Of a stretch of DNA of 28,042 nucleotides, positions 4,004 to 26,394 are shown piece after piece. How positions within the stretch are numbered: the first letter of the stretch is position 1; every line of letters begins with the position of its first letter. The translations under genes were made by a program, and so were the position numbers. The stretch is from a virus. Below the pieces are notes generated by a model that was not told the DNA's origin, ran no database searches, and worked only from the letters and a program-made list of their open reading frames with translations. The DNA lies in the IMG/VR virus record IMGVR_UViG_3300034073_002051, positions 1 to 28,042 of that record; one strand, given 5' to 3'.

Positions 4004-7000
4004 CAGAGTCCGAGTCTCCGGCGTGTTTTCACCGAACCTTGCATCGACTGAAAGGCCAGCGCCTTGCCGCGTTCGGCTGCCTCTCTCGTAGCAACGCGCA
4101 ACTGCTCAGTCGTGACATATTCCACGCCGTTAATAACCCTGGATTCATAGCGAACATCAATTGGCTTATTACTGAAGTCAGCGAAGCCCATATCATTCTT
4201 CTGCTGCATGGCAGCACGGGTTGCTTCCAGTTGAGCCCTTGTCTTCTTGAACAGGCTATTGGTGTCGTTGCTTGACATCACCTGTCCAGCGCCATCGGGC
4301 ATGAACAGCTCTGGGCCGCGCTCACCGACGATGTAGGGCTGGCGGGCATTCACCGGGCCGCCATTGGCCCTGAACAGGCCGAACAGGGAGCCACCAGGGG
4401 TGAACATCCCCGTGATGCCACCCACGGCACCAAAGATCCCCGCCAGGCCCATGAGGGTGTTGTAGGTGCCGCCTTCCTGCATCTGGTTGGCCCCGGCAAT
4501 GCCCATGGCAATGGAGCCCAGTGCGCCCACGGCAGCACCCATGGCCGTACCCAGGCCAGAGAAGGCGCCAGGGACCGGCTTGGCAGCATCCCCGGCCTTC
4601 TTGATGTCCGCTGCTGCGCTGGTGTTCGCAGCGGCGAGGAAGGCCTGGGAATCGGCCACGACCTCCGAACCAGGGGCTGCTGCTGCCGGAGGAATCGCCG
4701 GAGTGGTTGCTGTGCCAGGCACCGTGCCCGATGCAGACTGGGTTGCGGTTGCCAGGGTCTGACCAAGAACGGACAGGCCCTGTGCAGCCTGCTGGGCCTC
4801 GATGCCCAAGGTGTTCACCTGTTGGCCTGCCTGCTGCCAGGGCACCTGCTCCAATGCGATAGGCCCCTGACCTTCGCCTGCAGGCAGCGGGAACGCCTGA
4901 GGCGGCATGGCTCCATCCACCTGCGATGAGGTCTGACCAGCAACCGGGAGCCGGTTTGTCGTCGGTCCCATCGCTTGCGCTGGAGGCAGCACTGGAGCAG
5001 GAGGAGGTGTAACCATACCTGGCTTCACTGCAAGGCTCTGCTTGATTGCCTCCAGCGGGTTCTGTATTTGCCCAAGGGCATTGCGTAACTCGTAATGAAG
5101 ATGCGTGTTCTGTCCGTCATCGGTCACGGTGGCTATGCGCTGGCCAGCAGCGATGGGTTGACCGACACGCATTCCGCTCATCGGATTGACATGCCCATAA
5201 GTTCCTTCCGTCCCATCGTCGTATTTCACGACAACGGCACCACCCACTTCCCCAAATCCTGAGGAGTAGAAATCCTTGATGGTTCCAGCTCGCCTGGAGT
5301 GAATCGGATCACCAGGATCAAGGCCTAGGTCTTGACCGTTGTGATTGCGACCTCGCCAAGCACTCCAGCCAACACCTTCATTGATGTTGGGTCCACCTTT
5401 GGTTCCAGGCAGCATGTTGGCGACACCACCCACGGTGTTCGCAACGCCACCGGCTTGGCCTGCACCGGGGCCAACCTGCTGCGGACCCGCAGGGGGCTGC
5501 CATGCCTTGTTGAACACCCGTTCAATGGCAGCATTGAAGTCACGATGGAAGTTCTGGATCTCCGTGAGCGTGTTCTGCTCAATAGTGAGCCCCTTGGCAA
5601 TTTCTTGCTTGACTGCCTCACTGCCACTCCTGAAGATCTCTTCAGGTTTTTCGGGTGGCTTGAATCCGTCACCCATCAGTGCGCGAATCCCTGCGAACAG
5701 GTTGCGCTCCATGGGCTTCAGCACAAATTCATCAATGATGCTGGTCATGATCCGGTCACTGAGCTGACCGGCTGCATCGCTGATGGCCTCATCAATCCCG
5801 CCTTCCCTGAGGCCACGGGCAAAGGCGCTGGCGACTGACCGCCGGAATTCGCTCAGGCCTGCCGTCGCCTCACCCAGGACAGTGCCGATGCCATCCAGGC
5901 TGTCGAGAAACTCATTCCACCAGCGAATCGTGTCCAGCTCTGCCAGCTCACGTTGCTTGGCAATGTTTTCTGCAGTGGCCTGAGCTACGCGGCGAGTGCT
6001 TGCCTCTGCAATATCAAACTGCCTATTGGCTTCCGATGTTGATGCGGCTAGATCCCGTTCTGCTGCCTCCAGCGATTCAAATCCACCGATCAAGTTGGTG
6101 ACGCTTGCTTGAATCCCATTTGGATCCGCCTGTGCAGTGCCACCCGATGCAGCCGGAACACCGCGCCTTGCAAGTTCAGCATTGATTTGGTCGCGTGCAG
6201 CGATCTTTTGTTGATCCACGCGGCCTGCGGCCTGATCAGACCTGATGCCTTCTTGCAGTTGCAATTGCAAGATGGCCAACTGTGCCGCCAGTTGCGCCCT
6301 TTGGGTTGCCAGGGCAATACGTGCTTTCTGCTGCTCAAGATTGAAGATCTCGCGCTCTACCTTTAGGCGTTGCTCATCAAGCCGCAGAGTGAGCAGAGCG
6401 GATTCTTCCTGACGATCCGCCATCTCTTGCATGAGGCGTCGGCGTTCTTGGCCGATGCTCATCACGTCCTGATCAGCGGTTTGCCCATAGGCAGCCATGC
6501 GGGTGAAGAACCCATCGCTATCACGATCCCTGAAAGCTTGAATCCTGCTATCTGCAATCTGCTGATCGAGATCAATGCCCTCTTGAATGACCTGATTTTC
6601 TCGCTCAAGAAGGTCAACATACTTCTCTGCCAGCGAGATGCGCTCCTGCATTGTTTCAATGCCTCTGTCTGCCTGAGCATCAAGATTGGAGAACTCCTGC
6701 TCGGCAGCCTTGAGCTGAGCATTGATCACATTTGTCTGTTCTTCGATGAACAAACGTTGCTGTTCAGACAGTGAGTTCTCCCTGGCAAGCTGACCCTCAA
6801 TGTCGAGAATCCGTGCTCTAACCCCGGCGGTTTGTAAGTTGACTTGATAGAGCTTATCCGCATTGGCAATGAGCTTGTCATAGCTTGCTACCTGTGCATC
6901 CAGGGAGTTGGATGTTCTGAGGGCTTCATCTGCCAGTCTTTGTGTGATTGTAGAAAGACGCTGACCTTCAGGGCTTGTATCTGCCTTTCTGAACTGTGCT

Positions 7001-10000
7001 GTGTAGCTGAGCTGCACATAACGTTCACGCTCCTGCGCAGCCTGTGCCCTGAGCTGAGCCTGTGTGCCACGCAGCTCTGCTTGACGCATCTCCCGCTCAA
7101 TGGCAAAGCGCTGGCGGTCATTGGTGAGCAGAGAGCGTTGCTGCCTGATTTCAGCCTGACGGTTGCGAGCCTGGAGTGCGCTCAGATCCTTTTCAGCCTT
7201 GATCGCGTCCCCTTCAAAGCCAAGCTGCCTGCTGAGGCTTGCCCGGTTCTGCAGCCGTTGCTCTGATACCTGAGATCGCTTCTGAGCCAGCTCAATGTTG
7301 GCTTCCAGCAAGCGCCGCTCACCTTCCAGCACCTCAAGGCGCACCTGGCCGGAGACTTGAGCAGCAGCGGCAACGGCCTGCTCTGCCTTGGCCCGATCCT
7401 CCAGCAGCCTGATGTTCTGCTGCTCTGTGGACATGCTGAGCAGTTCACGCTCAAAGGTGAGAGCGCCAACCTTTCTGACGCCAGCATCAAACTCTTGACG
7501 GTTGCCTGTTGAGCGCAGATCAAGCTGGAAGATTCGCTCTTGTGTTGCTTTAATCTCCTGGTCAATGTTGCCAATAGTCAGAGGCAGTGTGTTGCGGACT
7601 TGTTCGTAGATCTTCAGCCTCTGCGTCAAAGAGTCGATGCCCTTCTCAAGTTCTTTTGCAGCTCCTAGATCCTTTCTGAATGCTTCAATATCTGCCTTGC
7701 GTCGTGCAGGAACATTATTCAGGTTTGTGATTTGACCAAGCTCTTTCTGTCCTGCAATGAAATCCTTGATGTCAGTTTCTCCCACGCCCTGCGTCCGCAG
7801 GAGCCTTGTGATCTGTTCTTTGGCGTTGTTTTGGGCTTGCTGCAGAAGACCGCCTGCTGCTGCAATCTGACTTGGGTTGAAGGGTAGGTTTTTGGTTAGA
7901 TTCTCCCTGCGTTGCCTTGTGCTTCTCAGTCTCGCATCAATCTCTTCACGCTTGCTGGTATTGGTTTCCAGCTTCGCCTCGTTAACAAGAGCTGCTTCTT
8001 CGATAGCAAGCTTGGTATCTTCTTCCCTCCACTTTGCGTAGGCCTCGCCATCTTGCTGGAGCGACTTGTAAACCTTGCCAGATTCATCAAGAATCTTTTT
8101 GGTTGTTCCCGCAGACTGCTCTTGGCCGATGTATGCGCCAAGGTTGAGCGAAGCAAAGAACCTGTCACTGCGGCTGAACTTCGCAGCGTTCTCCTGTCCT
8201 TCACCTTTGGTCAGGGCCTCCAGTGTCGTTTCAGCACCTTTCAGCGGATTCAGGTCGCCGCTGAAGGCCTTGAACAGCAAGGTCAGCGCTTCGATGGCCA
8301 GGTAGAGCTTCAGGACCGGGGCCAGCGCAGCAAAGGTGGCCTTGCCCAGGCCCACCATTCCGGCAGCGGCACCCTTGAGCCCCTGGCCCGTCTGCAGCAG
8401 GCCTGCATTGAGGCCTGTGAGGGCACCCTGCATCTGCCCCAGCGGCGCACCGGGTTGCGGGCCTCCCTGCCTGCCAAAAGCGAAGACTGCCGCCAGGGAA
8501 GTCTTCAGGCCATCCACGGCTTGCCGTGCGCCGCTGGCCACCTTGCCCAGGTTGCTCATCCCCTGCGGGGGCTGCGGCGCTTGCGGTGCCGCGACCCAAG
8601 GCGTTGCATAGGTCGGCCCGCCCTGGCGGCCCAGTGCAGTAGCTGCGCCAGCCTTGTCCCCAGATGCCAGTGCCAGGCCTGCAGTGGCAAGCTGCCCCGC
8701 TGCAGTCCGCCAGGACTTGATGCCCAGCGCACCCTTGGCCATGTTGGAGCCCAGCACCAGGGCGCCCACGCTCAGCACCCCTGCCAATGGGATGAGTTGC
8801 TTCAGCAGCGTCACCAGCCCCTGCAGGGCCAGGGTCAACGGCGCAAACAGCGGTTGACCAGCCACTGCACCGAACTGTTCCAGAACAGCACTGAGCTGCT
8901 CTTGCAGGTTGGAGAAACTTCCCGAGAGGGCATTGATGGATCCGCCCTCTGCCTTCAGTTGCTTGATGAACTTGTCAACAAATTCATCACCGGCAATCTG
9001 ACCGGCGCCAACCATCTTGTATAGCTCTTCCGTCGTGACACCAAATGCCCTGGCGGCAATTTGAATTGCACCTGGCATCTGCTCTGCCAACTGCTGCCGC
9101 AGTTCTTCCATCTGCACCGTGCCCTTACCCACGATCTGCGTGAGGGCAGAGGACACCCGGCCCAGTTGCTCACCGCTCAGACCCATGTTCCGGCCCGATG
9201 TGGCCAGCGTGCGGGTGATGTCCGTCTCCTGGCCCTCCAGGCGGGTGCCCTTCAGTGCTGCAGCAAAGGACAGGTAGCTCTGTGCTGTCTGCTGGTAGCT
9301 GGTGCCCAAATCCAGTGACTGCTGACGCAGCTCTTTCAGCACCTCGGTGGAATCGGTGATCCCCCTGGTGTTTCGCAGGTAGGTGCTGATGGATGTATCG
9401 AGTCGATCGAACTCTGCCGTGGTCTGCAGGATGATCCGAGGCAGGGGCAGCAGTGTGGAGTAGAGAATGTTGAATGCGAAGTCAAAGGCAATCAACTGCG
9501 GAATCAGGTTGCCCAGGTCATCTGAGAAGACACCGAATGCATTACGCAGGGTTTCAAATGCTCTTTCTCCATCTGTCGCTGTGTCATTCAGAACCCTGAA
9601 AGCACGATCAGCATTGGCAATCTGCCTATCAATTGCACCCATCGCATCGCGATAGGAGTTTTCATTCAGGAAGCCACCAGCAGGATCAGGCGAAAGACGC
9701 ATATTCGCCTTTGCCTCCTCCAGGTTTCTCCTGAAGTTCATCAGCTCCGTGCGCTGCAGGGTGCGATTCAGCACTTCATCGCCAATCTCCCTGCCACGGA
9801 AGCCACCAAAACCAGATGCCCCTTGAGCGCCGCGAATCTGCTCTTGGAGATAGCTCAGCTCTTGAATATCGCGAGCATTGTTTGCCCTGGCTTTTTCTGC
9901 ATCAGACAGACCTGAGGCTTGAATGGCGCGATTGGCTTCATCTCTGATCCGGCGCGTGGCCTGGATTGAAGATTCTGATTGAATGCCAAGCGCCTCAAAC

Positions 10001-13000
10001 TCCTTCGCCAGGCCCCGTGTTGCTGCTGCCTGGGCTTGCAGTTCAGTGGTGGTCCGCCGTGCCCCAGCTTCTGCCAGGGCCAGATCATCAGGATCAATCA
10101 GGCCTTGATCAGCCAGATTGCGAATTTCACGAATCGACTGCTCAACAGACTGCAGCGCATTGTTGGTATCAATGATGCCGCTGGTATCGACATTGGCAAA
10201 CAGACGGCGCAGCTTATCGAACTGCTCATAGATGTCCTGAATGCTTTTCAGGGTTCTGTTGATAGAACCTTCTGCATTAAATGCGCCAGCGTCTTCAAAC
10301 TCAAGTGAGTCAGGATCAACAGTTGCTCGCTGTTGCTGTGCATTGATAAAGCGATTGACGCTTCCTTCAGAGCCGTAGAAGTTAGTAGCTGTCCGTGCTG
10401 CATTGACCTGCCGCTCCAGCGCCCTTTGCTCTGCCAGAAGATCATTCAGTATCGCTTCATCATCTGGATCAGGAACACGCTCCCCATCAGGGCCTTCGAT
10501 GTAGCGCATCTGATCACGGAATGCGCTAACCCGTTTTCCAGCTGCAAATGCCTCGCGTTCAACTTCCCGCAATGCATCAATCAGGTTGTTGAAGCCTTGA
10601 CGGCTACCTGTACCTCGACTGGGTAGGACTTCATCAAGCCAGTCATTGAAGGCAAAGTCCCCTCCACCAGGAGGCCTTTGACCGCCAGGGCCTCCCAGTC
10701 CACCTGTTACACCAGCACCAGTAGAGCCACCACCACTACCACCACCAGAACCACCAGCACCACCGCCCCCAAAATTATTAGCGAATGCACCAGCAAAGTT
10801 GGAAACTGCGTTCTGAAACTTCTGGCCAACTCCCTGAACTTTGCTCTTAGCTGCATTGAAGGTGTCTCCAAGGGATTCAAGAGACGACAGGAATTGATCA
10901 ACGATACCCATTGCTGCATCAGCAGCACGGTTCATGTTCTGTTCAGATGGGCCTGCTGATGCACCCATCGAATACGAACCACTGGGGGTGAACCCACCAG
11001 GCTCTGTTGATGTCGTCTCAAAGACAGAGGCAATGGTCGGTTCAGGCCTGCGTGCTGGCGGCAGCAGCAGTTGACGCATCGGGGGTTGCGGAGCACGCGG
11101 CGGTGTCCGGTCCTGCATCGAGTAGGTGCTGCTTTCCCATGGATCGGGAATTGGCCCCACCCGGCTGCCCACGTCAAACAGGGGCAGCGAGGCCCCGCCC
11201 ACGCCCGCAGGGAGCCTTCCACGGATCCGACCAGTGCCGCTCCGCAGCATCCCTGGTGACAACGGAGAGGAAGGCGCACCAATGGCCTGCGTAGGAGCCA
11301 GATCCGACGCCACAAAGCGACTTGAGCTGTACTGATTGAAGCTCTTGGTAAATGCACCATCAATCAGGCGTTCCAGTGTTCCTGGTAGCTGCCTGGCAGT
11401 GCGTTCAATCTTCGCCTCTGGGAAGAAGTCTTGGAATGTGCCCCTTGCCGAAGCTTCCGATAGAAGCTGAGACGGCATATTCTGAAGACCTACGCTTTCA
11501 AGACGCTTCTGATAAAGCGGAGGGTCTATTGTTAGATCGGCAATTGAACCAATCAAAGTGCTGTAGTCAACACCCGCACCGGCAGGTGTTTTCACTGCAT
11601 AATCAAATACCTTGTTGAGGCTGCTTTCAATTCTCCCTTTGAGCAGATCCATTACCTGCTCCCATCCGATCAAAACAGATAGACCCGCTTCTCTCCCTAG
11701 GGCTATCAGAAGCCTCGATGGACTCTTCATTTGAAGAGCAGCCTTGATGCCCTGGATCAGCGCGAATGCAAGCCTTGAGCCTGCATCAGTCGAGCTGTTC
11801 TTTTCATCAAGAATGCCTGCGATGAAAGACTCTGCGGCTTGACCAGACAGGCCGCGCAGTTCTGATGCAAGCTCTTTGCGGGTATCTGGAACATCTCGAC
11901 CCGTTTGAGCCGATAGTGCCGATGCAAAGTCACTGGTGGTTTTTGCCGCCAGACCACCCTTTCTGCCCTCAAGAAGGCCAGCCATGCCTTCCAGGGCCAT
12001 GGATGCAAAGTTCTTCTTGAAGTCCTCGTTGTATTCAACGGCTGTATTTAGGGCGTTGACAGTCTTCGACTCCTTATCCCATGCCCTGAAAGTGGACTGT
12101 GCCTCTTTGTATTTCCCGAGCTGTTCAGGAGTCCAATCTGACATTGGGCCGCCAAACATGCGGCTGGATGGCTTGTAGGGGCGGGATGTTTCGTATTCCC
12201 CTACAGCCTGTTTGACAAAGTTTGCAAAGAGGTCAAAAGCTTTTGGTTGGGCACTGGAAATCTGACCTGCAGTTGCCGCTTGATCAATGACCTCAACCTG
12301 CCCTTCGGATCCCCTTCTAATTAGGCCCTCTTTGAAGGCCAGTTCTCGCATCTTCCCAAATGCCGCCTTTGCATTGGCAAGCTCTGGATACTCACCGATA
12401 GTGTTATCTATGTCATCGAGTATGGCGCTTTGATCCAGCTCTTTCACCAGAGTGGATAGTTGACGTGCTGTCAGCTTCATCGAAGTAGACAGCTTGATGC
12501 CAGCTTCCTTCAGTGCAGCCCCATGAGTGTTGGCTGAATCTATATCTGTTTGCAGTGCGGTATTTAGACCTTCAAGTTGCTTCTTGCCTAGTCGAATCGG
12601 ATAGAGCTTTTCAACGTCTTGTGCTGTCTCTCTGCTTTCTCCACTGCCGAGAGTATCGGCTACCTTCCTACTGAGATCGACAACCTGTTCACTGAGATCC
12701 CCCAGCCGTTTGTCGGATGCAATCAGCCTTTCAGAGGCCTCGCGGAATGCGCCAGCAATCGTGCCGTCTCCACCTGAGAGCAGAGCGCCTCCCTGGCTAA
12801 CGCTGTCGCCAATTGCTTTCTGGCTATTGAAAAGACGCTGTTGCCATTCTTCGATGTATTTCTGCCTGGCTTCGCCTTTGTCTAGGCCCTTCCATTCTTC
12901 GACGCCGCCAAGAGCCCACTTGGATTCAAAGAGTTGTTCGGCTATTGCGGAGAAATGACGAACATCTGATGCTCGCAATTCGTCAATAACTTTCTTGAAA

Positions 13001-15912
13001 GCATCCGCAATGCCTCCCCTCTTGGGCTGCTGATCAAACGGAGTGGCGCCCACCACTTCAGCGTTGACCGGAAGCGCATCACTACCGGGCAGTGCCAGCG
13101 CATCCCCCAGCACTTGCACGTTGACAGGCTTGATTGATTTCTTGATTGCGCTATCAATTGCCGCGATCTCTTCACCGATAGCCTCAAGGCTATCCATGTC
13201 ATCAGCAACTGCATCGGCAGCTTCTCTGAACTTGGTTGCTTTCTCAATCCACTTCTCTCCGCTTTGGCTGTAAGCCTCAAAGGCCTCGTCAACCTCGGCA
13301 AAGATTTTCTGCAGATCAGGAGACACCTCATCGCCAAATGAAGCGATGTCAGGCAGGGCCAGGTCACGAACCGTGGACTGCACCAGGACCGACTGCTGTT
13401 GACGCTGCAGCTCCTGCTGCACCCGCTGGGCCTCCCGCTTGGCCAGGGCGATGTTTTCCGCTGGCGTGACCGCTGGCTGGGTATCGAACAGCGGTGTCCC
13501 GGCCTCCTCGATGGTTTCAGGCCTGGCTTTGCCAAAAATTGCCTCCAGCTCTTGCTCAACTGCAGACGTGATGTTGGGCAGAATGTCCCGCATGATTGCG
13601 GGCATGTTCTCGCCTTCCTTCAGCTTTGCAATGCCCTGATTGATTGCTTGGGTGATGGCACTCGATGTGAACTTAATCGAGTCAAATGTCTTCAGGATCT
13701 TGTCTGCTGCATTGGCAATCTCCTGGTTTTCATCTACGTTGATAACGTTGCCGCCTTGCTCGCTCAGAACTTCGGCATTCTTGGCAACAACGGAGAACAG
13801 TCGCTTCTGGCCCCTGAGCGCACTCTTGACCCCATCTGTGACCTTGATCCGCTCTCGCAGGTCACTTTCGACAATCTCCTCTAGGCCAAGAATCGTGTCT
13901 TGAACTGTCTTCTTCTCTTCTCCATACCTGCGGATGTCAACGAGTTCCTGAAGCTGCCTGTTGCTGGTCTTCGATGGTTTCCCTGCAAACTTGAGCGCTT
14001 CCCGCTGAGCGTCTTCGCTCAGGCCTGAATTGCCAAGAATCGCAGCGCGATCAATGGACAGTTCACCCCTGACAACCTGATCAAAAATCTCACTCGGCAG
14101 CGATGCCAGGGATAGCCCCTTGCCTGCCATCCCCGACGACAGAGGCAGGCCTACCTTCTTGATTGCATTTACATCACGGATACCTGTATCCCTGAAGAAC
14201 TTGGCCGCATCAACAGCAGTACCAGCACCACTGGCGATGTTCTGCATCGCACCGATGCGCCGCGCTTCAGCAACGTTCTTGGCGTCGATGTAGCGGACAT
14301 TCAGCTCCTCAACACCGAGCTTTTCTGCTAGGGCCAGGCGGTTGTGGCCGTTGACCACATAGGTCTTGCCATCACGGGGATCCCTCCAAACGGAGAGCAC
14401 GCCAGCAAGATCGTCATCCCATGTTTCAACGTCGCTAAGGCTTCCGACCTCGCCCTTTTTATTGCTGCCCATCTTGTATTGCAGCTCTCGCGGATTCAGG
14501 CCAATTTCACGCCTGTTGATCCGCGCCATGTTGCCGGTCAGTTGATCCGACACCATGCGAACTGCATCGGTGACAGCCCTGGAGACAACTGCATTCGATG
14601 CAGGAGGCAGCGCCAGCATCCCTGTGCTGGAGCCAGGCAGAAGCCGGGGTGCAACCGGCGGCACATCAATGACCGGAGGTGTGGAGGAACGCACCCCAGT
14701 GATGCGCTCCATTCGGTTTTTGACGTACTGCCTGACAACGCGACCTGATTCGCTTGCTTCTTGAATGTCAGGTGTTTCCCGCTTGTTGACTTGCTGTCCA
14801 GGCTTCAGGCCTGGCTTTTGCTTCAGATTGCTTGGCAGCAGACCTTCATTGATCTTCCTGAGCTGATCAAACGCTTCTTCGATTTGTTCGTAGCTATACC
14901 TTGACTTTGTGATCAGTTCATTCCAGTTCTTCTCGGCCATCTTCCGGTTTCTTTCCTCGGAAGTGCCGTAGATGATGGCGGGTCGTGCCCTGCCGCCTTG
15001 CGGTGCAGCACTGCGTTGAGATGTAGGCCCCTGCATCTCGCGCAGGAGCTGCTGGAGGCCCGCGTCATCGCGGAAGTTGGCCAGCACCCCAGAGCGGCTC
15101 TGGAAGGTGCTCAGCAGCATCTTGATGTCACGGCCAATGCTGCTCAGAACCTGCCGGTCAAAGAAGCCAGCCCTGGCAGCAGGCAGCGCCCGTGGCCCAC
15201 GCACCGATGCGGCAGAAGGCCTGAAGCTCGGCGGCGGGGGAGGAGCCAGCGGTGCCCTGGTGGCGCTGCTCAGTGGCGGCGGCGGGGGAGGCGGTGTCAG
15301 GCCAGGGAACGGGGTAGGCCTCGGTGCTGCAGGCTGCCTGGTGGGGCGCACGGTCTGGGTTTGGCCAGCCCGATCCGATGCCCGAATCTCAACCCGGCCA
15401 GAGACAGGCCGCTGCCGGAACAGTTGTTGCGTCTCCTGCCAGTGCTCCTGTTTCCGATCCAGCTCTTTGTTCAGCTCGATCAGCTCCGAGAGATCAACCT
15501 TCGGTTTGATGACCGTTGCGTTGATCTGTTGAGCCAACTCATTGAAGCACTCAACAGCGACATTCAGTGCTGTATCGAGATCAATGAGGCCCGACGAATC
15601 AATCTTGGGCTTGATCGGATTTCTGGCTGCATCCGTAACCAGTGTCTGCAGATTCTCCTTGACAACGCCAATGGCAGAGTCAAGGTTGGTCAGCTCATCG
15701 AAGTTGGCCTTGGCCTTAACCTCAAGACTTCCAGCTTTGCGCTGCAAGCGCTGCTGAACACGCTGTAGCTGCTGATCAGCACCAGTAGCAGTGACTTCAA
15801 TATTGGCCTTTACGTCGGGCAAGCCGAGCAGCTTGCTTTCCAACTTGTCAAGCTTATTCTCAACCTCGTCAAGGTTGATTCCTATATTTAGCCTAACATC
15901 ACCCTCTGCCAT
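4003..15912 (-). CDS. Giant multidomain tape measure protein with ParB-like and M23 peptidase domains
   Basis: 3969 residues in one frame. N-terminal coiled region, then a Pro-rich stretch (~201-233). A ParB-like domain (~468-580, 'NGHNRLALAEKLG' with H523 and R525, then 'AGTAVDAAKFFRDTG') has the form seen in phage and plasmid polyvalent proteins. A Pro-rich patch near 1607 and a Gly/Ser hinge (~1715-1748) follow. A tape-measure N-terminal domain (TIGR02675-like) spans ~2160-2325, after a hydrophobic segment, with further hydrophobic segments to ~2390. Long coiled coil covers ~2590-3300. An M23/LytM endopeptidase domain (~3510-3615) keeps H3524 and D3528 (HxxxD), H3574 and H3604/H3606 (HxH). 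The C-terminus has Gly/Ala-rich hydrophobic stretches (~3784-3850) and 'VGERGPELFMP' (~3861), typical of tape measures. It sets tail length, leaves the tail ahead of the DNA and cuts peptidoglycan. The role of the N-terminal half is unknown. Confidence 0.93.
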   Translation of the reverse strand: MAEGDVRLNIGINLDEVENKLDKLESKLLGLPDVKANIEVTATGADQQLQRVQQRLQRKAGSLEVKAKANFDELTNLDSAIGVVKENLQTLVTDAARNPIKPKIDSSGLIDLDTALNVAVECFNELAQQINATVIKPKVDLSELIELNKELDRKQEHWQETQQLFRQRPVSGRVEIRASDRAGQTQTVRPTRQPAAPRPTPFPGLTPPPPPPPLSSATRAPLAPPPPPSFRPSAASVRGPRALPAARAGFFDRQVLSSIGRDIKMLLSTFQSRSGVLANFRDDAGLQQLLREMQGPTSQRSAAPQGGRARPAIIYGTSEERNRKMAEKNWNELITKSRYSYEQIEEAFDQLRKINEGLLPSNLKQKPGLKPGQQVNKRETPDIQEASESGRVVRQYVKNRMERITGVRSSTPPVIDVPPVAPRLLPGSSTGMLALPPASNAVVSRAVTDAVRMVSDQLTGNMARINRREIGLNPRELQYKMGSNKKGEVGSLSDVETWDDDLAGVLSVWRDPRDGKTYVVNGHNRLALAEKLGVEELNVRYIDAKNVAEARRIGAMQNIASGAGTAVDAAKFFRDTGIRDVNAIKKVGLPLSSGMAGKGLSLASLPSEIFDQVVRGELSIDRAAILGNSGLSEDAQREALKFAGKPSKTSNRQLQELVDIRRYGEEKKTVQDTILGLEEIVESDLRERIKVTDGVKSALRGQKRLFSVVAKNAEVLSEQGGNVINVDENQEIANAADKILKTFDSIKFTSSAITQAINQGIAKLKEGENMPAIMRDILPNITSAVEQELEAIFGKARPETIEEAGTPLFDTQPAVTPAENIALAKREAQRVQQELQRQQQSVLVQSTVRDLALPDIASFGDEVSPDLQKIFAEVDEAFEAYSQSGEKWIEKATKFREAADAVADDMDSLEAIGEEIAAIDSAIKKSIKPVNVQVLGDALALPGSDALPVNAEVVGATPFDQQPKRGGIADAFKKVIDELRASDVRHFSAIAEQLFESKWALGGVEEWKGLDKGEARQKYIEEWQQRLFNSQKAIGDSVSQGGALLSGGDGTIAGAFREASERLIASDKRLGDLSEQVVDLSRKVADTLGSGESRETAQDVEKLYPIRLGKKQLEGLNTALQTDIDSANTHGAALKEAGIKLSTSMKLTARQLSTLVKELDQSAILDDIDNTIGEYPELANAKAAFGKMRELAFKEGLIRRGSEGQVEVIDQAATAGQISSAQPKAFDLFANFVKQAVGEYETSRPYKPSSRMFGGPMSDWTPEQLGKYKEAQSTFRAWDKESKTVNALNTAVEYNEDFKKNFASMALEGMAGLLEGRKGGLAAKTTSDFASALSAQTGRDVPDTRKELASELRGLSGQAAESFIAGILDEKNSSTDAGSRLAFALIQGIKAALQMKSPSRLLIALGREAGLSVLIGWEQVMDLLKGRIESSLNKVFDYAVKTPAGAGVDYSTLIGSIADLTIDPPLYQKRLESVGLQNMPSQLLSEASARGTFQDFFPEAKIERTARQLPGTLERLIDGAFTKSFNQYSSSRFVASDLAPTQAIGAPSSPLSPGMLRSGTGRIRGRLPAGVGGASLPLFDVGSRVGPIPDPWESSTYSMQDRTPPRAPQPPMRQLLLPPARRPEPTIASVFETTSTEPGGFTPSGSYSMGASAGPSEQNMNRAADAAMGIVDQFLSSLESLGDTFNAAKSKVQGVGQKFQNAVSNFAGAFANNFGGGGAGGSGGGSGGGSTGAGVTGGLGGPGGQRPPGGGDFAFNDWLDEVLPSRGTGSRQGFNNLIDALREVEREAFAAGKRVSAFRDQMRYIEGPDGERVPDPDDEAILNDLLAEQRALERQVNAARTATNFYGSEGSVNRFINAQQQRATVDPDSLEFEDAGAFNAEGSINRTLKSIQDIYEQFDKLRRLFANVDTSGIIDTNNALQSVEQSIREIRNLADQGLIDPDDLALAEAGARRTTTELQAQAAATRGLAKEFEALGIQSESSIQATRRIRDEANRAIQASGLSDAEKARANNARDIQELSYLQEQIRGAQGASGFGGFRGREIGDEVLNRTLQRTELMNFRRNLEEAKANMRLSPDPAGGFLNENSYRDAMGAIDRQIANADRAFRVLNDTATDGERAFETLRNAFGVFSDDLGNLIPQLIAFDFAFNILYSTLLPLPRIILQTTAEFDRLDTSISTYLRNTRGITDSTEVLKELRQQSLDLGTSYQQTAQSYLSFAAALKGTRLEGQETDITRTLATSGRNMGLSGEQLGRVSSALTQIVGKGTVQMEELRQQLAEQMPGAIQIAARAFGVTTEELYKMVGAGQIAGDEFVDKFIKQLKAEGGSINALSGSFSNLQEQLSAVLEQFGAVAGQPLFAPLTLALQGLVTLLKQLIPLAGVLSVGALVLGSNMAKGALGIKSWRTAAGQLATAGLALASGDKAGAATALGRQGGPTYATPWVAAPQAPQPPQGMSNLGKVASGARQAVDGLKTSLAAVFAFGRQGGPQPGAPLGQMQGALTGLNAGLLQTGQGLKGAAAGMVGLGKATFAALAPVLKLYLAIEALTLLFKAFSGDLNPLKGAETTLEALTKGEGQENAAKFSRSDRFFASLNLGAYIGQEQSAGTTKKILDESGKVYKSLQQDGEAYAKWREEDTKLAIEEAALVNEAKLETNTSKREEIDARLRSTRQRRENLTKNLPFNPSQIAAAGGLLQQAQNNAKEQITRLLRTQGVGETDIKDFIAGQKELGQITNLNNVPARRKADIEAFRKDLGAAKELEKGIDSLTQRLKIYEQVRNTLPLTIGNIDQEIKATQERIFQLDLRSTGNRQEFDAGVRKVGALTFERELLSMSTEQQNIRLLEDRAKAEQAVAAAAQVSGQVRLEVLEGERRLLEANIELAQKRSQVSEQRLQNRASLSRQLGFEGDAIKAEKDLSALQARNRQAEIRQQRSLLTNDRQRFAIEREMRQAELRGTQAQLRAQAAQERERYVQLSYTAQFRKADTSPEGQRLSTITQRLADEALRTSNSLDAQVASYDKLIANADKLYQVNLQTAGVRARILDIEGQLARENSLSEQQRLFIEEQTNVINAQLKAAEQEFSNLDAQADRGIETMQERISLAEKYVDLLERENQVIQEGIDLDQQIADSRIQAFRDRDSDGFFTRMAAYGQTADQDVMSIGQERRRLMQEMADRQEESALLTLRLDEQRLKVEREIFNLEQQKARIALATQRAQLAAQLAILQLQLQEGIRSDQAAGRVDQQKIAARDQINAELARRGVPAASGGTAQADPNGIQASVTNLIGGFESLEAAERDLAASTSEANRQFDIAEASTRRVAQATAENIAKQRELAELDTIRWWNEFLDSLDGIGTVLGEATAGLSEFRRSVASAFARGLREGGIDEAISDAAGQLSDRIMTSIIDEFVLKPMERNLFAGIRALMGDGFKPPEKPEEIFRSGSEAVKQEIAKGLTIEQNTLTEIQNFHRDFNAAIERVFNKAWQPPAGPQQVGPGAGQAGGVANTVGGVANMLPGTKGGPNINEGVGWSAWRGRNHNGQDLGLDPGDPIHSRRAGTIKDFYSSGFGEVGGAVVVKYDDGTEGTYGHVNPMSGMRVGQPIAAGQRIATVTDDGQNTHLHYELRNALGQIQNPLEAIKQSLAVKPGMVTPPPAPVLPPAQAMGPTTNRLPVAGQTSSQVDGAMPPQAFPLPAGEGQGPIALEQVPWQQAGQQVNTLGIEAQQAAQGLSVLGQTLATATQSASGTVPGTATTPAIPPAAAAPGSEVVADSQAFLAAANTSAAADIKKAGDAAKPVPGAFSGLGTAMGAAVGALGSIAMGIAGANQMQEGGTYNTLMGLAGIFGAVGGITGMFTPGGSLFGLFRANGGPVNARQPYIVGERGPELFMPDGAGQVMSSNDTNSLFKKTRAQLEATRAAMQQKNDMGFADFSNKPIDVRYESRVINGVEYVTTEQLRVATREAAERGKALAFQSMQGSVKTRRRLGL

Positions 15913-15942
15913 TGCCGCGCAACAACAACCCGTCCCTTGATT

Positions 15943-16934
15943 CTATTCAGCATCAGACGCAAGTTCGTCCTTCAATACTGCAGCAAGAGAGATTGGAAGT
16001 TCGCCGCTAAGGATTAGCTTCTTGATCAGCCTGAGCGTGCCAGGCGTAGCATTGGTCTTCGACTCCGTGTAAATCTTGTTCGGATCAAACGGAAGCAGTT
16101 GCTCTACCTTGACACTGTTTGCCGCCTTCTGTCCGCCAAGGCCTGACAGCACGATATGAGCCAACCTTGCAACCGTGACGGAATGCAGGTTGGCTTGTAT
16201 CTTCTCCTGCCGGTCTAGTTCCTTTAGAACCAGGGCAACAGTTCTTGTCGTCAGCTTGCTGAAGTTTTCTTGGCTGAACTCGCCGGTTGCGATTCCGCTG
16301 GCGACAAATCTTGCGAAGACTCCGTTCCAGTCGTCTTCTTGCTCGATGATGGCGATGCACTCTCTTTCAAGGGCGTCGATTCCTCCTGCTCTTTTCCCAG
16401 GTCTTCGTCCTCCATTGCAGGGGGATCGAACTCTTCCGCATCCTCATCAAGCTTTCCGCCTGCCTGCTCTTCATAGATGAACTGCAGGAGCTTGTCGCTC
16501 ATGTCACCCGTCAACACCTCGGTGTCACCCTCAGTCCAGTCGGCCAGGGCTTCCCACTTGCTGCGAATCAGGGCCTGGCCCCGTGTCCGCATGAAGATGG
16601 TCAGCAACTGGGAGTCCTGCTCCTCGCGGGAGAGGCCCGAATCCATCAGTTGATTGGTTTCATCCTGGTAGTCAGCGAGCAACATGGCGCTGTCGGCCTC
16701 TCCCTGGCTCTGCAGCAGGCCAAAGGCCTCTTCAACCGTGATGTTCTTGTCGTTAGAGATCTTCTTGGCCAGTTGCACAGCGGAAAGCATCTGCCGCGCT
16801 TGACGCTTTGCCATCCGGCTTTGCTGGATCTTTTCAGCCAGCAGCCACGCATTGTGACGACGGAGGCGAATCCTGTCGTTCAGGAAGAAGTATTCAGCCT
16901 CGTCGCCGTGGACGAGAAATGCGTATTTAGCCAT
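15943..16934 (-). CDS. Tail assembly chaperone, -1 frameshift product (lambda gpGT-like)
   Basis: Predicted 330-residue fusion. Frame 0 is read from the ATG at 16932-16934 for 181 codons to the slippery heptamer GGGAAAA (16392-16398). After a -1 slip, translation continues for 149 residues to the TAG at 15943-15945. The shifted frame is open from just upstream of the slip, beginning RAGGIDALERECIAIIEQED, and reads as folded protein (for example 'FARFVASGIATGEF', 'TVALVLKELDRQEK'). Frame 0 beyond the slip is only Ser/Lys-rich low-complexity sequence. No convincing start exists for the downstream frame (a TTG at 16162-16164 lies far inside the conserved-looking region), so it must be reached by frameshifting. 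By analogy with lambda gpGT, the fusion binds tape measure through its N-terminal part and recruits tube protein through the T part. It lies directly upstream of the tape measure, as usual. Confidence 0.85.
16251..16934 (-). CDS. Tail assembly chaperone, unshifted product (lambda gpG-like)
   Basis: 227 residues from the ATG at 16932-16934 (MAKYAFLVHGDEAEYF). The same frame is open a further 38 codons upstream, but that stretch overlaps the preceding 77-residue gene in another frame and looks like non-protein sequence, so the inner ATG is preferred; the preceding stop is one base away. The body is helical and charged (for example 'AWLLAEKIQQSRMAKRQARQ'). It ends in an acidic linker (DEDAEEFDPPAMEDEDLG) at the slip site and a 46-residue Ser/Lys/Pro-rich tail to the TGA at 16251. 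In siphophages this shorter, more abundant form coats the tape measure during tail assembly and is absent from the virion. Confidence 0.85.
   Translation of the reverse strand: MAKYAFLVHGDEAEYFFLNDRIRLRRHNAWLLAEKIQQSRMAKRQARQMLSAVQLAKKISNDKNITVEEAFGLLQSQGEADSAMLLADYQDETNQLMDSGLSREEQDSQLLTIFMRTRGQALIRSKWEALADWTEGDTEVLTGDMSDKLLQFIYEEQAGGKLDEDAEEFDPPAMEDEDLGKEQEESTPLKESASPSSSKKTTGTESSQDLSPAESQPASSAKKTSAS
16392..16413 (-). promoter_or_regulatory. Programmed -1 ribosomal frameshift site with upstream Shine-Dalgarno-like stimulator
   Basis: On the minus strand the heptamer G GGA AAA (16398 down to 16392) is in the X XXY YYZ register relative to the G frame (codons CTG GGA AAA), so both tRNAs can re-pair after a -1 slip. 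Lambda uses the close relative GGGAAAG. A GGAGGA element (16413 down to 16408) ends nine bases before the heptamer, a spacing like that of the stimulatory element upstream of the E. coli dnaX slip site. Slipping here joins exactly the two open frames. I see no obvious downstream pseudoknot. Confidence 0.82.
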
Positions 16935-17169: not shown

Positions 17170-17687
17170 TGGGTGAACACCTGTTCTGTACTGTTTTCAA
17201 CCGGCGATGGAATGCCTTGCAGGGTTCCATGCGTGGGCCAGTTCTCCAAGTCCACATCTTCCGATGTGATCTGAATCATTGCTCTATCACTGAGGTCAGT
17301 GTCAGCCTTGCGGTAATAAGTCGCCTTGGCTTCACCGCCAAAGTGTCTCAGCAGTTGATTCACGGGCTCTTGAATCGTCTTCTTCCCATCCCACTGCTGC
17401 AGATATAGCGTCCACACCTGGGTCCGCATCGTGATGCCTACCATCCGCATCACCTTGGGCAGGGGCACCTCGACAATCACTGTCTCAAGGCCTTTGGGAT
17501 CCCAGTTGCTTGGCACACGCTGCGTGCCTTGCACAAAAATGGCTGGACTGACTTTCTTGTTCAACTGGTAGTACCAGCCTGGTGCATTGGTTAGCGGTGC
17601 CTTCTTCCAGGTTCCATTGGACTGTTTCGTGTATTGGTAGTAACCCAACACTGTTTCGACAATGCTTCTCAGTTGAATCAGGTTCAC
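17166..17687 (-). CDS. Putative tail terminator / tail completion protein
   Basis: 173 residues from a GTG at 17685-17687 that overlaps the preceding stop as GTGA. It begins MNLIQLRSIVETVLG and contains Trp/Tyr-rich beta segments (PGWYYQLNKK, TQVWTLYLQQWDGKKT). Size, start and place among the neck genes fit the tail terminator or tail completion proteins that cap the tube next to the head, but no diagnostic motif is visible. It sits after the tube gene, whereas many siphophages place the terminator before it. It could also be another tail tube accessory protein. Function is inferred from position only. Confidence 0.45.
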   Translation of the reverse strand: MNLIQLRSIVETVLGYYQYTKQSNGTWKKAPLTNAPGWYYQLNKKVSPAIFVQGTQRVPSNWDPKGLETVIVEVPLPKVMRMVGITMRTQVWTLYLQQWDGKKTIQEPVNQLLRHFGGEAKATYYRKADTDLSDRAMIQITSEDVDLENWPTHGTLQGIPSPVENSTEQVFTQ

Positions 17688-18265
17688 AGCGAGATCCTCA
17701 CGGTTGTGCCATTCAGTCTTGAGCGCAGAGCCTGAATGAATGCTTGCTTGGCAAACTGCCAGCCGGTATCGGGAACGTCTTGCGGCTGCACAAAGGTGTA
17801 GTCCACATCCATCCGCCCACGCTGGTCAAATGGCGTGACCCAGGCTGTCCATGGCCTTGCTGAATAGTTGTCGAACTTGGGACCGTTATACGCATCTGGC
17901 GCACGCATGTATGTCTGGTACTCGACGATGCCAGGTGCGCCATCGTGAACCAGTGCTGCATAACGTCTTCCTGATTCAGGGAAAACTGGATTCCACTGAA
18001 AGGAAAACGCATAGGTTGTTCCAGTTGGTGTCTTGAGTCTTATCACTTCACTCATTCTCTTGCTTTTGATCAAGTCACCATTTTCACCGTTGCCGCCACT
18101 GTTCGACTCTGGATACCCTTCTCTTATCGTCCCATCTACCCACTTCCATGGGTAGTAAAGCATTGCGTACTCCAGTTGATAATCCATCGTTGCCTGCATG
18201 TCTTGTGCAGCAGCAAGCACCGCTTGATTGATCTTTCGCCTTACAGGGTCCAGAAGTCTTCCCAT
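17684..18265 (-). CDS. Putative neck / tail completion protein (possibly HK97 gp10-like)
   Basis: 193 residues from the ATG at 18263-18265. It begins with a basic helix (MGRLLDPVRRKINQAVLAAAQDMQ), as in gp10-like neck proteins, and contains 'RRYAALVHDGAPGIVEYQTY', which resembles their 'yA..vh.G' segment. Its start codon lies one base beyond the T-tract of the intrinsic terminator that follows the tube gene, and there is no good Shine-Dalgarno element (the nearest AGG is inside the terminator stem). So its expression, and that of the genes behind it, probably depends on read-through. The gp10 assignment is tentative. Confidence 0.5.
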   Translation of the reverse strand: MGRLLDPVRRKINQAVLAAAQDMQATMDYQLEYAMLYYPWKWVDGTIREGYPESNSGGNGENGDLIKSKRMSEVIRLKTPTGTTYAFSFQWNPVFPESGRRYAALVHDGAPGIVEYQTYMRAPDAYNGPKFDNYSARPWTAWVTPFDQRGRMDVDYTFVQPQDVPDTGWQFAKQAFIQALRSRLNGTTVRISL

Positions 18266-18266
18266 G

Positions 18267-18299
18267 AAAAAAGCGCCTAGCTGTTTCCAGTCTAGGCGC
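18267..18299 (-). terminator. Rho-independent terminator after the major tail protein gene
   Basis: Minus-strand order: GCGCCTAG (18299-18292), A, CTGGAAACAG (18290-18281), CTAGGCGC (18280-18273), TTTTTT (18272-18267). The outer arms pair perfectly over 8 bp. The inner CTG/CAG pairs around a GAAA tetraloop, so the stem is 11 bp with one bulged A. It lies 22 bases after the tube gene stop and directly before the next start codon. It would end most transcripts after the abundant head and tube proteins and let fewer continue to the tail chaperone, tape measure and tip. Confidence 0.85.
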
Positions 18300-18321
18300 C
18301 GTATTCAATTGCTACTTGCTA

Positions 18322-19380
18322 TCAAGCAACAGTGAATTCACCAGTGCGAAGACCGATCAGAGGCGTATTCACGCTGTTCACGGTCTGGAGCATGGCACCA
18401 GTCTCGATCTCGGCGTAATACTTGGCGCCAGCGGTCAGGGAGGCAGCCGGAGTCAGGGTCACGATGCCCGTGCCGGTGGTCGCCACCACAGTGGCGGGCA
18501 CGAAGGTCTTGTCGGACACCTTCACCAGGCGAGCCTTGGGCTTGCTGGCCAGATCGGCAGCAGCCACCAGGCCAGTCAGAGCAGTGCCAGCGCCATCGGT
18601 GTACTTGAACACGATGTCGGTAGAGGCATCCACGCTGCCCAGGCCACCCGCCAGGGGGATGGTCGTGGCAACGCTGCTCACCTCGGCGGTGGCGCTGACC
18701 TGACGCAGGATGCTGCCAGTGGGGCCAACAGCAGGCAGGGCAGCCAGGATCTCCCGGTTGGGGAGGCCAGTCCGCATCGGGCTGATGGTGTCATACAGGC
18801 CCATGTAGGCCTCACCACGGCTCATCACATCGAAGGAGCATTCCACCAGGCCATCAGCCGGATAGGACTCCTGATAGTTCATGACCACACCAGCGAAGCA
18901 GGCCACGTCATAGACGCTCACGCCACCGTCGATGTTGTCGATGAGCTTGTAGATCTCGATCCAGGCCTCAAAGTCCTTATTGTTCTTGAACTTGGAGACG
19001 ATGGCCTGCACCTCGTCAAACTTGCCCTTCTGGGAGTAGTAGGTGGGAGCCTCTGCATTGCCAGCCCACTCCAGGTTCTTCAGGAAGTAGGCAGTCACCG
19101 ACATCTGCACCCGGCTGTTGGTGATCACACCATCAGACCAGCCGGAGTCACCCACCAGACGGTAGGTGGTTTCATCATCACTGATCTGGAAGTTGGATGT
19201 GGTGGCACCCTGGAACTCGTACATCGCGAGCTTACCGTTGTCAATCCGGTAGATCTCGGTGTTGTCAGTTCCAGCCTTGTAGGTAACACCAGGACGATTC
19301 ACGTCCGTCACAGCGCCGATCCGAACCAGAACGTCGCGGGTTTTCAGGATCCGTGTGGGATGGGTAATAACCGAAGCCAT
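18322..19380 (-). CDS. Major tail (tube) protein
   Basis: 352 residues from the ATG at 19378-19380, with a good Shine-Dalgarno GAGG seven bases upstream. The first ~235 residues form a mixed alpha/beta domain (MASVITHPTRILKTRDVLV, later 'AYMGLYDTISPMRTGLP'). The rest (~236-352) is Thr/Ala/Val-rich and looks like an added beta-sandwich ('TGTGIVTLTPAASLTAGAKY', ending IGLRTGEFTVA), as in tube proteins with surface-exposed Ig-like C-terminal domains. Many copies polymerise around the tape measure. GC-rich, strong codon use, its own Shine-Dalgarno element and a strong terminator immediately after it fit a protein needed in large amounts. The assignment rests on place and expression signals more than on a motif. 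Confidence 0.68.
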   Translation of the reverse strand: MASVITHPTRILKTRDVLVRIGAVTDVNRPGVTYKAGTDNTEIYRIDNGKLAMYEFQGATTSNFQISDDETTYRLVGDSGWSDGVITNSRVQMSVTAYFLKNLEWAGNAEAPTYYSQKGKFDEVQAIVSKFKNNKDFEAWIEIYKLIDNIDGGVSVYDVACFAGVVMNYQESYPADGLVECSFDVMSRGEAYMGLYDTISPMRTGLPNREILAALPAVGPTGSILRQVSATAEVSSVATTIPLAGGLGSVDASTDIVFKYTDGAGTALTGLVAAADLASKPKARLVKVSDKTFVPATVVATTGTGIVTLTPAASLTAGAKYYAEIETGAMLQTVNSVNTPLIGLRTGEFTVA

Positions 19381-20622: not shown

Positions 20623-21531
20623 TCAGGCTTGATCGACGTAGAGGACAGACTTGGGATAGCGCACCACAGCGCCCATCACACGCGCATGAGCAGCAACCTT
20701 GTATTCAAGGCCTTGGCGCTCAGCGGGGAAGAACTCAAGAACCTGAGGGATGAACAGTTCAACCTTCTCAGGATTGCGGTCATAGACCACCATCCGGTTC
20801 TTGTTGGCGCCGCTGAAGTCATCCAGTTCATTCATCGGCATGATTTCCGAGATGAACGGATTGGTGCGCAGAAAATACTCCATCACCGTGGTGTCGGATG
20901 TGCTGCTGCGCGGAGTTGTTGAAATCTTGTTGTAGTCGTCATACGCCATCAGGATCGTATTCGGACGTTCCACCATCTTGGTGCCGCTGACAATCCGGCT
21001 CACTGCCGTATTCAGCAGGGTCAGGATCTCATCGGGTGTCGATGTGGTGCTGATCCAGCTACTTGTGACATTCAGCTTGTCAACAGAGCTGTTATTCAGG
21101 AAGCCCTCAACACCCACGGTGGCATCGCCGTAGAGCGCCATTTCATTCACCTTCTCCTCATAGGAGCGGCGAACTGCACTCACACGCTGCTCTTGCAGGC
21201 CAAAACCTGCATAGCGGGCTGCGCGAGTCTCCTGCACGGTATAGGCGTAGGAGCTGGCGATGGACACCACCTTCAGCGTGACTTCCTTGCGGGTCACGTC
21301 TGCGCGGGGCAGGTCGCTGGCGCGGTCCTGAATCACCTTGAACCCGCCAGTGCGGTCAAGCATCCGGTAGGTGTAGGTGTCAGCAGCATTGCCGATAGAG
21401 CCGGTATCCACAGGAAGAATCTGCGGATACATGATGTCGGCGTACTTCTTCTCAAAAACCCGAGACTCAATGGCCTCAAGTTCCCGTGACAGCCAGATGC
21501 CGTCATCATCAAGTCGGGTTGCCTTGCTCAT
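20623..21531 (-). CDS. Major capsid protein, DUF2184 type
   Basis: 302 residues from the ATG at 21529-21531 (MSKATRLDDDGIWLSRELE); an in-frame GTG at 21538-21540 would add three residues, but AGGTGA sits five bases before the ATG. The sequence follows the DUF2184 capsid pattern: 'ELEAIESRVFEKKYADIMYP', 'DRASDLPRADVTRKEVTLKV', 'SSYAYTVQETRAARYAG' and 'GDATVGVEGFLNNSSVDKL', ending 'RYPKSVLYVDQA'. These are HK97-fold shell proteins. It follows the protease/scaffold and cement genes in the usual order. There is no long N-terminal delta domain, which fits with scaffolding supplied by the separate protease-scaffold gene. Confidence 0.88.
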   Translation of the reverse strand: MSKATRLDDDGIWLSRELEAIESRVFEKKYADIMYPQILPVDTGSIGNAADTYTYRMLDRTGGFKVIQDRASDLPRADVTRKEVTLKVVSIASSYAYTVQETRAARYAGFGLQEQRVSAVRRSYEEKVNEMALYGDATVGVEGFLNNSSVDKLNVTSSWISTTSTPDEILTLLNTAVSRIVSGTKMVERPNTILMAYDDYNKISTTPRSSTSDTTVMEYFLRTNPFISEIMPMNELDDFSGANKNRMVVYDRNPEKVELFIPQVLEFFPAERQGLEYKVAAHARVMGAVVRYPKSVLYVDQA

Positions 21532-21543
21532 GATTGTCACCTA

Positions 21544-22074
21544 TCAAGCGATGCTTTTGAGCTGGATCGGGACCAGCGAGTTGGCTGCCGCATCCCGCAG
21601 GAAGTAGGCAGAGATGTCCGTGGAAGAGGCCGTGCCACTTGCACAAACGGTGTCGGCGCCTGCATCGAGAAGGGCAACCTTGCTGCCAGCAGTGACGATG
21701 GTGCTGGTGTAGACCCAGATGGTCCCTTCTTCCAGCACGTTCACCACATAGCCCTCGGCATAGCCAGGACGGTCAGCAGTGGTGCTGCCGATGGTGATGG
21801 AGCGGGTGGCGGGAACGAAGGTGTCAGACACCACGGCGAAACCAGCAAAGCCATTGGCTTTGGTGTAGGTGCGAACCTTGCCGTCCCCATCGGGAGACAG
21901 AGGCTGGCCGAACACGATCACAGCAGCCCGGTCATTCACTTTGGAACGACAGGTGTTAGCGCTGTAGTCATAGTGGGCGCCCCAACGGCCCAGATCGTGC
22001 TTCAGGGCGTAGTCGGTTTGAACAGCGCCGTAACCAGCGCCGCTTGCCGCAGCGGGAGTGATAGTGATAGCCAT
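21544..22074 (-). CDS. Structural cement / head decoration protein
   Basis: 176 residues from the ATG at 22072-22074, overlapping the protease/scaffold stop as ATGA. It is beta-rich and small-residue-rich, without long helices: 'RAAVIVFGQPLSPDGDGKV', 'GFAGFAVVSDTFVPATRSIT', 'VVNVLEEGTIWVYTSTIVTAG', 'SKVALLDAGADTV'. This layout, a repeated small beta-barrel with an 'eeG.i.V....v..Gd.v' turn, is that of phage cement proteins encoded just before the major capsid gene. They bind the outside of the shell and stabilise it. Strong GC-rich codon use agrees with an abundant virion protein. Confidence 0.72.
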   Translation of the reverse strand: MAITITPAAASGAGYGAVQTDYALKHDLGRWGAHYDYSANTCRSKVNDRAAVIVFGQPLSPDGDGKVRTYTKANGFAGFAVVSDTFVPATRSITIGSTTADRPGYAEGYVVNVLEEGTIWVYTSTIVTAGSKVALLDAGADTVCASGTASSTDISAYFLRDAAANSLVPIQLKSIA

Positions 22075-23282: not shown

Positions 23283-23307
23283 TTCCTAGGTAATGCCTTG
23301 CGTTCCT

Positions 23308-23336
23308 ATTATGCAGCTCAGATTGTGCATTATCAG
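23308..23336 (-). promoter_or_regulatory. Candidate promoter and operator of the head/tail operon
   Basis: In the divergent gap between the XRE gene and the protease gene, the minus strand reads CTGATA (23336-23331), 17 bases, then CATAAT (23313-23308): 4/6 and 5/6 matches to the sigma-70 consensus with ideal spacing. This would start transcripts about 20 bases before the protease ATG. The same bases hold an imperfect dyad: ATTATGCA (23308-23315) and TGCATTAT (23326-23333), 7 of 8 positions complementary around a 10-bp spacer. A dyad overlapping the promoter is the expected place for the adjacent XRE regulator to bind. Both calls are by eye. Confidence 0.4.
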
Positions 23337-23340
23337 CGCA

Positions 23341-26360: not shown

Positions 26361-26394
26361 TGCATTCCTCACTCATAAACAGGATAACGGAACC

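Follow-up and report, generated by a model that had tools for sequence, protein, structure and literature searches.

A predicted ParB-family module near the N-terminus of a viral tape measure protein

The window analyzed here is a 28,042-base viral fragment from IMG/VR (record IMGVR_UViG_3300034073_002051), whose minus strand encodes a tape measure protein (TMP) of 3969 residues. A predicted ParB-family module lies toward the N-terminal end of this protein, within the one open frame that also encodes the TMP core and an M23 enzyme domain. The features of the gene are listed below with residue numbers of the TMP.

4003-15912, minus strand: TMP gene, 3969 residues (open reading frame list, translation, Pfam and PHROG profiles)
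14548-15912, minus strand: N-terminal region of the TMP, residues 1-455, helical with proline-rich linkers (blast comparison)
13513-14547, minus strand: predicted ParB-family module, residues 456-800 (AlphaFold, Foldseek, VIA-align, hhalign)
14182-14538, minus strand: ParB N-terminal (nucleotide-pocket) subdomain, residues 459-577 (AlphaFold model residues 20-138)
14338-14352, minus strand: NGHNR motif, residues 521-525, in the position of ParB GERR (hhalign)
14200-14244, minus strand: QNIASGAGTAVDAAK, residues 557-571, in the position of ParB ENxxRxDLxPxEEA (hhalign)
13924-14175, minus strand: helix-turn-helix region resembling the ParB DNA-binding domain, residues 580-663 (structural alignment, hhalign)
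13534-13917, minus strand: beta hairpin and helical tail, residues 666-793, unmatched to ParB (AlphaFold secondary structure)
10276-14547, minus strand: N-terminal extension of the TMP, residues ~456-1879 (blastp; absent from the TMP of the relative L140)
12652-13044, minus strand: second shared module, residues 957-1087, helical (28-42% identity to carriers in head-gene clusters)
8872-9432, minus strand: TMP_3 core, residues 2161-2347 (Pfam PF20155, E 1.3e-29)
5077-5346, minus strand: M23 peptidase domain, residues 3523-3612 (Pfam PF01551, E 2.7e-14)

The open reading frame (ORF) is a genuine TMP gene, as a sequence-only reading of the window had proposed. Its 3969 codons run without an internal stop, its match to TMP_3 scores 103.8 bits against a curated cut-off of 41, and several PHROG tail length tape measure families also match. 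The gene order fits this identity: p16251 aligns with a gene slightly upstream of the TMP gene in Synechococcus phage S-CBS4, and ORFs downstream of the window TMP match central fiber J-like profiles and, weakly, a minor tail L-like profile. A search for relatives of the tail-assembly gene returned a single contig, L001.

The predicted structure of the module is that of a ParB protein. An AlphaFold model of residues 440-800, computed with 47 relatives, has a predicted local distance difference test (pLDDT) score of 91.4 and a predicted template modeling (pTM) score of 0.80, with the strands of the N-terminal subdomain at model residues 23-27, 67-71, 78-82, and 97-102. When this model is compared with the PDB by Foldseek, every one of the 28 top matches is a ParB, Noc, KorB, or Spo0J structure, the best with an E-value of 1.5e-5. 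VIA-align superimposes it on 6t1f_D (Z 9.5, 4.2 Å over 181 residues, model residues 23-222) and on 7nfu_B (Z 9.3, 4.3 Å over 194 residues), and both alignments span the N-domain plus the helix-turn-helix. These are the compact alignments; others with higher Z (up to 11.2) have root-mean-square deviations above 11 Å, probably because the two domains are differently placed relative to each other. An hhalign comparison of the module family with seven true ParBs covers 212 columns (E 1.3e-7) and lines up LPSEIFDQVVRGELSIDRAAIL in the helix-turn-helix region with ParB LPDEVLDMVVRSELSMGHARAL. The structural matches stop near model residues 222-231, and the helical tail (residues 685-793) has no ParB match in the whole-module alignments, the tail alone having been given no separate search. 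The model thereby places the module in the ParB/Srx superfamily, with a ParB N-domain followed by a helix-turn-helix as in Spo0J, Noc, and KorB.

The fold was recognized solely through the AlphaFold model with its 47 relatives; Pfam scans and PDB-sequence searches gave no such assignment. Pfam ParB_N (PF02195) has no match up to E 10 in the window protein (P0001), nor any in five carrier records, and the ddrB-ParB profile PF18763 has no match at E ≤ 1 in the window and 11 carrier records. Searches of the module against PDB sequences with phmmer and hmmsearch returned chance matches only. HTH_ParB matches 2 of 34 family members weakly (E 0.017), and the PHROG ParB families give weak single-member matches in L072 and L080. 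The superfamily named in the sequence-only reading is therefore borne out by the fold, by the Foldseek and VIA-align matches, and by hhalign, but not by the Pfam ParB and DdrB-ParB profiles, and the DdrB subtype that it proposed gives way to the layout of Spo0J, Noc, and KorB. Its interval of 14180-14520 is smaller than the module, which extends over residues ~456-800.

PHROG_21, a family labeled portal protein, matches module residues 466-766 with an E-value of 4.5e-44, well beyond anything chance would give. We rejected this label for the window TMP, since the match is confined to profile positions 1022-1327 and a separate portal gene is present. Positions ~1000-1340 of the profile contain the ParB module, and any carrier, TMPs included, can therefore be mislabeled as a portal. 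This is a systematic naming error, in which the PHROG_21 portal protein family matches carriers of the module that are not portals.

The three strings originally cited as a ParB signature, with no strand given, are all present on the minus strand within residues 521-577: NGHNRLALAEKLG at residues 521-533 (window 14352-14314), ARRIGAMQNIASGAGT at residues 550-565, and AVDAAKFFRDTG at residues 566-577. The canonical cytidine triphosphate (CTP) motifs of the ParB family are changed here, with GERR replaced by GHNR and ENxxR by QNIAS. Six residues (G522, H523, R525, R551, N558, and D568) are nonetheless identical in all 146-147 aligned carriers, and K571 is kept in 146 of 147. The window copy retains every invariant pocket residue, yet its identity to relatives other than L001 does not exceed 47%. 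By its motifs the module is thus not a canonical CTPase ParB, and by profile it is not a DdrB-ParB.

Relatives of the module are widespread in viruses. IMG/VR was searched by a profile-guided scan with two peptide patterns, with 80 hits kept per scan, and at least 421 relatives were found in viral contigs; the 11 carrier records examined for copy number contain the module once each. In head-gene clusters the module lies between the portal and head protease genes, and the portal, protease, and capsid genes of these clusters resemble those of the window (in L030, for example, the portal is at 1882-3189, the carrier at 9233-11845, the protease at 15668-16180, and the capsid gene at 17638-18534). 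It forms the C-terminus of the lambda-type portals of L037 and L039 and lies within a 2563-residue protein of the T7-like P-SCSP1 phages of Prochlorococcus. In P-SCSP1a this protein is g21, which the paper describing the phage took to be a likely internal virion protein on account of size and position (PMC9860041). Other carriers are small stand-alone proteins or giant proteins of 1,900-4,400 residues, and the module turns up as well in a small number of contigs from bacterial genomes (Nostoc, Acidobacteria, and others). A second TMP lineage (L106-L112), with proteins of 4,374-5,591 residues where complete, has the module ahead of the TMP_3 core, and in L109 the TMP_3 match exceeds the Pfam cut-off. 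The module is mobile among virion proteins.

The connection to polyvalent proteins that the sequence-only reading had drawn is supported by these searches, which recovered homologues on both tape measures and such proteins. The carrier of Ruegeria phage 45A6 (L084) is a 3912-residue protein with LPD38, helicase, methyltransferase, and GNAT domains, and the module is common to multidomain effector proteins in virion gene contexts (L084, L017, L031, and the head clusters). One head-cluster protein pairs it with an ART domain (L017:9272-13507; PF01129, E 6e-10) and another with an M90-like metalloprotease domain (L031:9371-14092; PF06167, E 3e-6). A Cys-free carrier of 3,181 residues (L070:2474-12019) has a 2H phosphoesterase (2_5_RNA_ligase2) domain immediately ahead of the module, and also a weak Acb1 match. 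The 5,287-residue TMP at L109:5057-19999 has a Beta-lactamase2 serine-hydrolase domain (PF13354, residues 4419-4615, E 1.6e-24) that is perhaps a wall enzyme. A Cys motif resembling C-S-T-G-Y-x-C-G-x-x-C-I (phrog_33618) occurs one to three times in head-cluster and portal-fused carriers (L004-L035, L037, L039, L041, and others). The TMP carriers, the T7-like carriers, and almost all of the giant ones lack this motif, which may serve in head loading or in metal binding.

The window also contains the following genes outside the TMP gene.

24756-26372, minus strand: portal protein (PF06381, E 2.4e-60)
22074-23282, minus strand: head maturation protease (phrog_530, E 3e-101)
20623-21540, minus strand: major capsid protein (phrog_264; 52.8% identity to Synechococcus phage S-CBS4)
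23756-24418, plus strand: phrog_24776 gene in the portal-protease interval, without the ParB module (profile match)

The nearest isolate is S-CBS4, to which the portal is 47% and the terminase (terL) 44% identical, and the host is probably, by this relationship, a cyanobacterium of the kind infected by S-CBS4. The terminase large subunit gene (26395-27813, plus strand) diverges from the other structural genes, as in S-CBS4. Between the portal and the protease, the window has two genes on the opposite strand (23293-23667 and 23756-24418), neither with the module. The second of these encodes a Cys-rich C-terminal segment that is MuF-like by eye only.

No module was found in S-CBS4, whose entire genome was searched, or in the contig of L140, the closest syntenic relative (capsid protein 61.6% identical). 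The L140 TMP has 2,410 residues, and its residues 456-983 align with window residues 1880-2399 (40%, E 4e-102, blastp), which leaves ~1,425 additional residues ahead of the window TMP core. About 150 residues past the ParB module, this extension contains the second shared module, for which AlphaFold predicts helices only and with low confidence (pLDDT 52). It accounts for part (~957-1087) of the roughly 1000 further residues that had been described as uncharacterized. By eye only, this region (12652-13044) seems to comprise a helical unit that is present twice, as IADAFKKVIDELRASDVRHFSAIAEQL and as IAGAFREASERLIASDKRLGDLSEQV. The two modules have the same order and similar spacing in the window (residues 470-811, then 957-1086) and in the head-cluster carrier L025 (336-679, then 799-928). 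On a tree, the window module groups with head-cluster and T7-like carriers (support 97/91), but its branch is long and its exact placement unsure. The simplest reading of these sequences is that a two-module head cassette was transferred into the TMP. Independent gain of the module by the two TMP lineages, which are separate on the tree, could not be shown, since the approximately unbiased (AU) test does not reject a single origin (p = 0.193).

A composite gene of this kind could also arise if the assembly had joined two phage contigs within a single ORF. The GC content at third codon positions is 0.47-0.52 for residues 957-1879 and 0.58-0.64 in the rest of the gene, and codon usage shifts as well, a change expected of acquired DNA and equally of a chimera. 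A search found no relatives of residues 1090-1880, so that the junction between the module and the core, present in one contig, has no second witness. Against a chimera, the frame stays open over its full length, and the TMPs of L109 and L111 show the same order, with the module ahead of the TMP_3 core. The independent contig L001 repeats the upstream gene order and has the N-terminus and the module in a single ORF; among the loci compared, residues 1-455 have homology to this near-identical contig only (87%), with a weak resemblance of residues 1-57 to the L140 TMP. Cysteine content also argues for one TMP. The window protein has 1 Cys in 3,969 residues, against a Cys frequency of 0.74% for the remaining genes of the window (binomial P 4e-12), and the depletion is uniform along its length. 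In 50 ORFs that have a TMP core but no module the figure is 0.26 Cys per 1,000 residues, and head-cluster and portal carriers have ~9 per 1,000. Because the module itself is Cys-free in all carriers except the stand-alone ones, this scarcity supports the extension as a whole and not the module alone. We consider an assembly chimera extremely unlikely. Frequencies of 0.1-0.6 Cys per 1,000 are also seen in TMPs and in several giant or ejection-type carriers (L070-L084, L106-L112), and Cys scarcity may mark proteins that are threaded through tails.

The TMP ruler probably also carries a ParB-family factor toward the host cell. In siphophages, the C-terminus of the TMP is anchored at the tail tip or baseplate; in JBD30 the DNA end extends into the tail, where it is probably held by the TMP, and the expelled TMP has been proposed as an entry channel (PMC11445458). 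In related phages the module is probably head cargo, and in the window phage it would have been transferred into the TMP together with its partner module. Because it is N-terminal and the C-terminus is anchored at the tail tip, it would be positioned at the head-side end of the TMP, beside the DNA end. It would then exit the tail last among the parts of the TMP and accompany the leading DNA to the entry site. At that site it would most likely fold, bind nucleotide and DNA, and either hold or shield the incoming genome end or act on the DNA of the host while entry proceeds. Its most likely activity is to bind DNA under the control of a nucleotide, given that both the helix-turn-helix and the pocket are retained. 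We hold with about even confidence that a polyvalent ParB-like module has moved from head cargo into the TMP, leaves the virion with the DNA end, and binds nucleotide and DNA. SNIPE, a defense nuclease that associates with TMPs, cleaves DNA while it is being injected (PMC13190303), and one may speculate that a DNA-binding TMP module is well placed to matter against it. The wider proposal, that the TMP is a delivery chassis in which a ParB-family module from the head reaches the entry site on the channel-forming protein, beside the leading DNA end, and guards or steers the genome against nucleases there, is tentative and rather doubtful.

Several points weigh against delivery of a nucleotide- and DNA-binding module by the TMP. 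Portal-fused copies cannot all be ejected unless they are cleaved, and some may act within the capsid. The tail lumen, shared with a trimeric TMP, probably has no room for a folded ParB domain, which must therefore either unfold or be located at the head-side end. The altered GERR and ENxxR motifs mean that a CTP clamp like that of Spo0J cannot be assumed, and the join of the module region to the TMP core is known from the window contig alone. An alternative is a role solely inside the virion, in which the module grips the packaged DNA end at the head-tail junction and its carriers have the DNA exit path in common. Every identified carrier does lie at or near that path, including the portal C-termini, which as far as is known are not ejected, and the probable hold of the JBD30 TMP on its DNA end would be a parallel. 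Fusions to ART, protease-like, GNAT, methyltransferase, and helicase domains suit effectors better than an anchor, however, and the module is missing from S-CBS4 and L140, the closest relatives, and is thus not needed for DNA retention. We regard a purely virion-internal role as unlikely.

An injected enzyme is an unlikely but serious contender: a ParB/Srx-type nucleoside triphosphatase (NTPase) or nuclease would attack host DNA or a nucleotide signal rather than clamp or shield the genome. An NTPase or nuclease role has been argued for DdrB-like ParBs by Iyer et al., the partner domains include ART, an M90-like protease, and a 2H phosphoesterase, and the pocket residues are invariant in 146 carriers despite the changed CTP motifs. 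The module nevertheless keeps the helix-turn-helix of DNA-binding ParBs, which points to DNA recognition. The length of a TMP determines the length of the tail, and the ~1,425-residue extension could in principle be an inert passenger that merely lengthens the ruler. This is very improbable for a copy that has diverged so far from its relatives outside L001 with all of its invariant pocket residues intact.

With the module in a siphophage TMP, the polyvalent-protein concept reaches beyond head cargo and the proteins of podoviruses. The module is a natural marker for the long-standing question of which TMP segments reach the cell interior, in which sequence, and whether folded or not. With ~340 residues at several places in the virion, it also permits comparison of the head, portal, internal-virion, and tail routes.

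Polyvalent proteins, their ParB-superfamily domains, and TMPs with wall enzymes are already known; searches of the open-access literature turned up no earlier description of a TMP with a ParB module. The module resembles ParB/Spo0J, Noc, and KorB in its fold, its two-domain order, the GxxR pocket loop, the invariant N of ENxxR, and a common LP..v...V..geLs..rA segment. It differs from them in having GHNR for GERR and QNIAS for ENxxR, in being unmatched by Pfam ParB_N, in having no C-terminal dimerization domain recognized in the whole-module alignments, and in being carried on virion proteins. With phage P1 DdrB and PF18763 it shares the ParB/Srx superfamily, phage late-gene contexts, and an association with polyvalent proteins (PMC5512222), but PF18763 matches neither the window nor the 11 carriers, and a complete helix-turn-helix follows the N-domain. 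Polyvalent proteins are modular, multidomain proteins that are encoded with virion genes and bear domains for early infection (Iyer et al. 2017, PMC5512222). The Ruegeria phage 45A6 carrier fits this description, whereas the window carrier is a tape measure protein, a term absent from the main text of that founding paper. The T7-like P-SCSP1 (MPP-C) phages have the same module in a putative internal virion (ejection) protein, g21 of P-SCSP1a, but they are podoviruses without a TMP and the rest of the protein is unrelated. The TMP of TM4 is reported to have a built-in peptidoglycan hydrolase motif (PMC1796659). The window TMP is similar in containing an additional functional domain, and it has an M23 domain as well, but its added domain is a module predicted to handle DNA and nucleotides, close to the head-side end.

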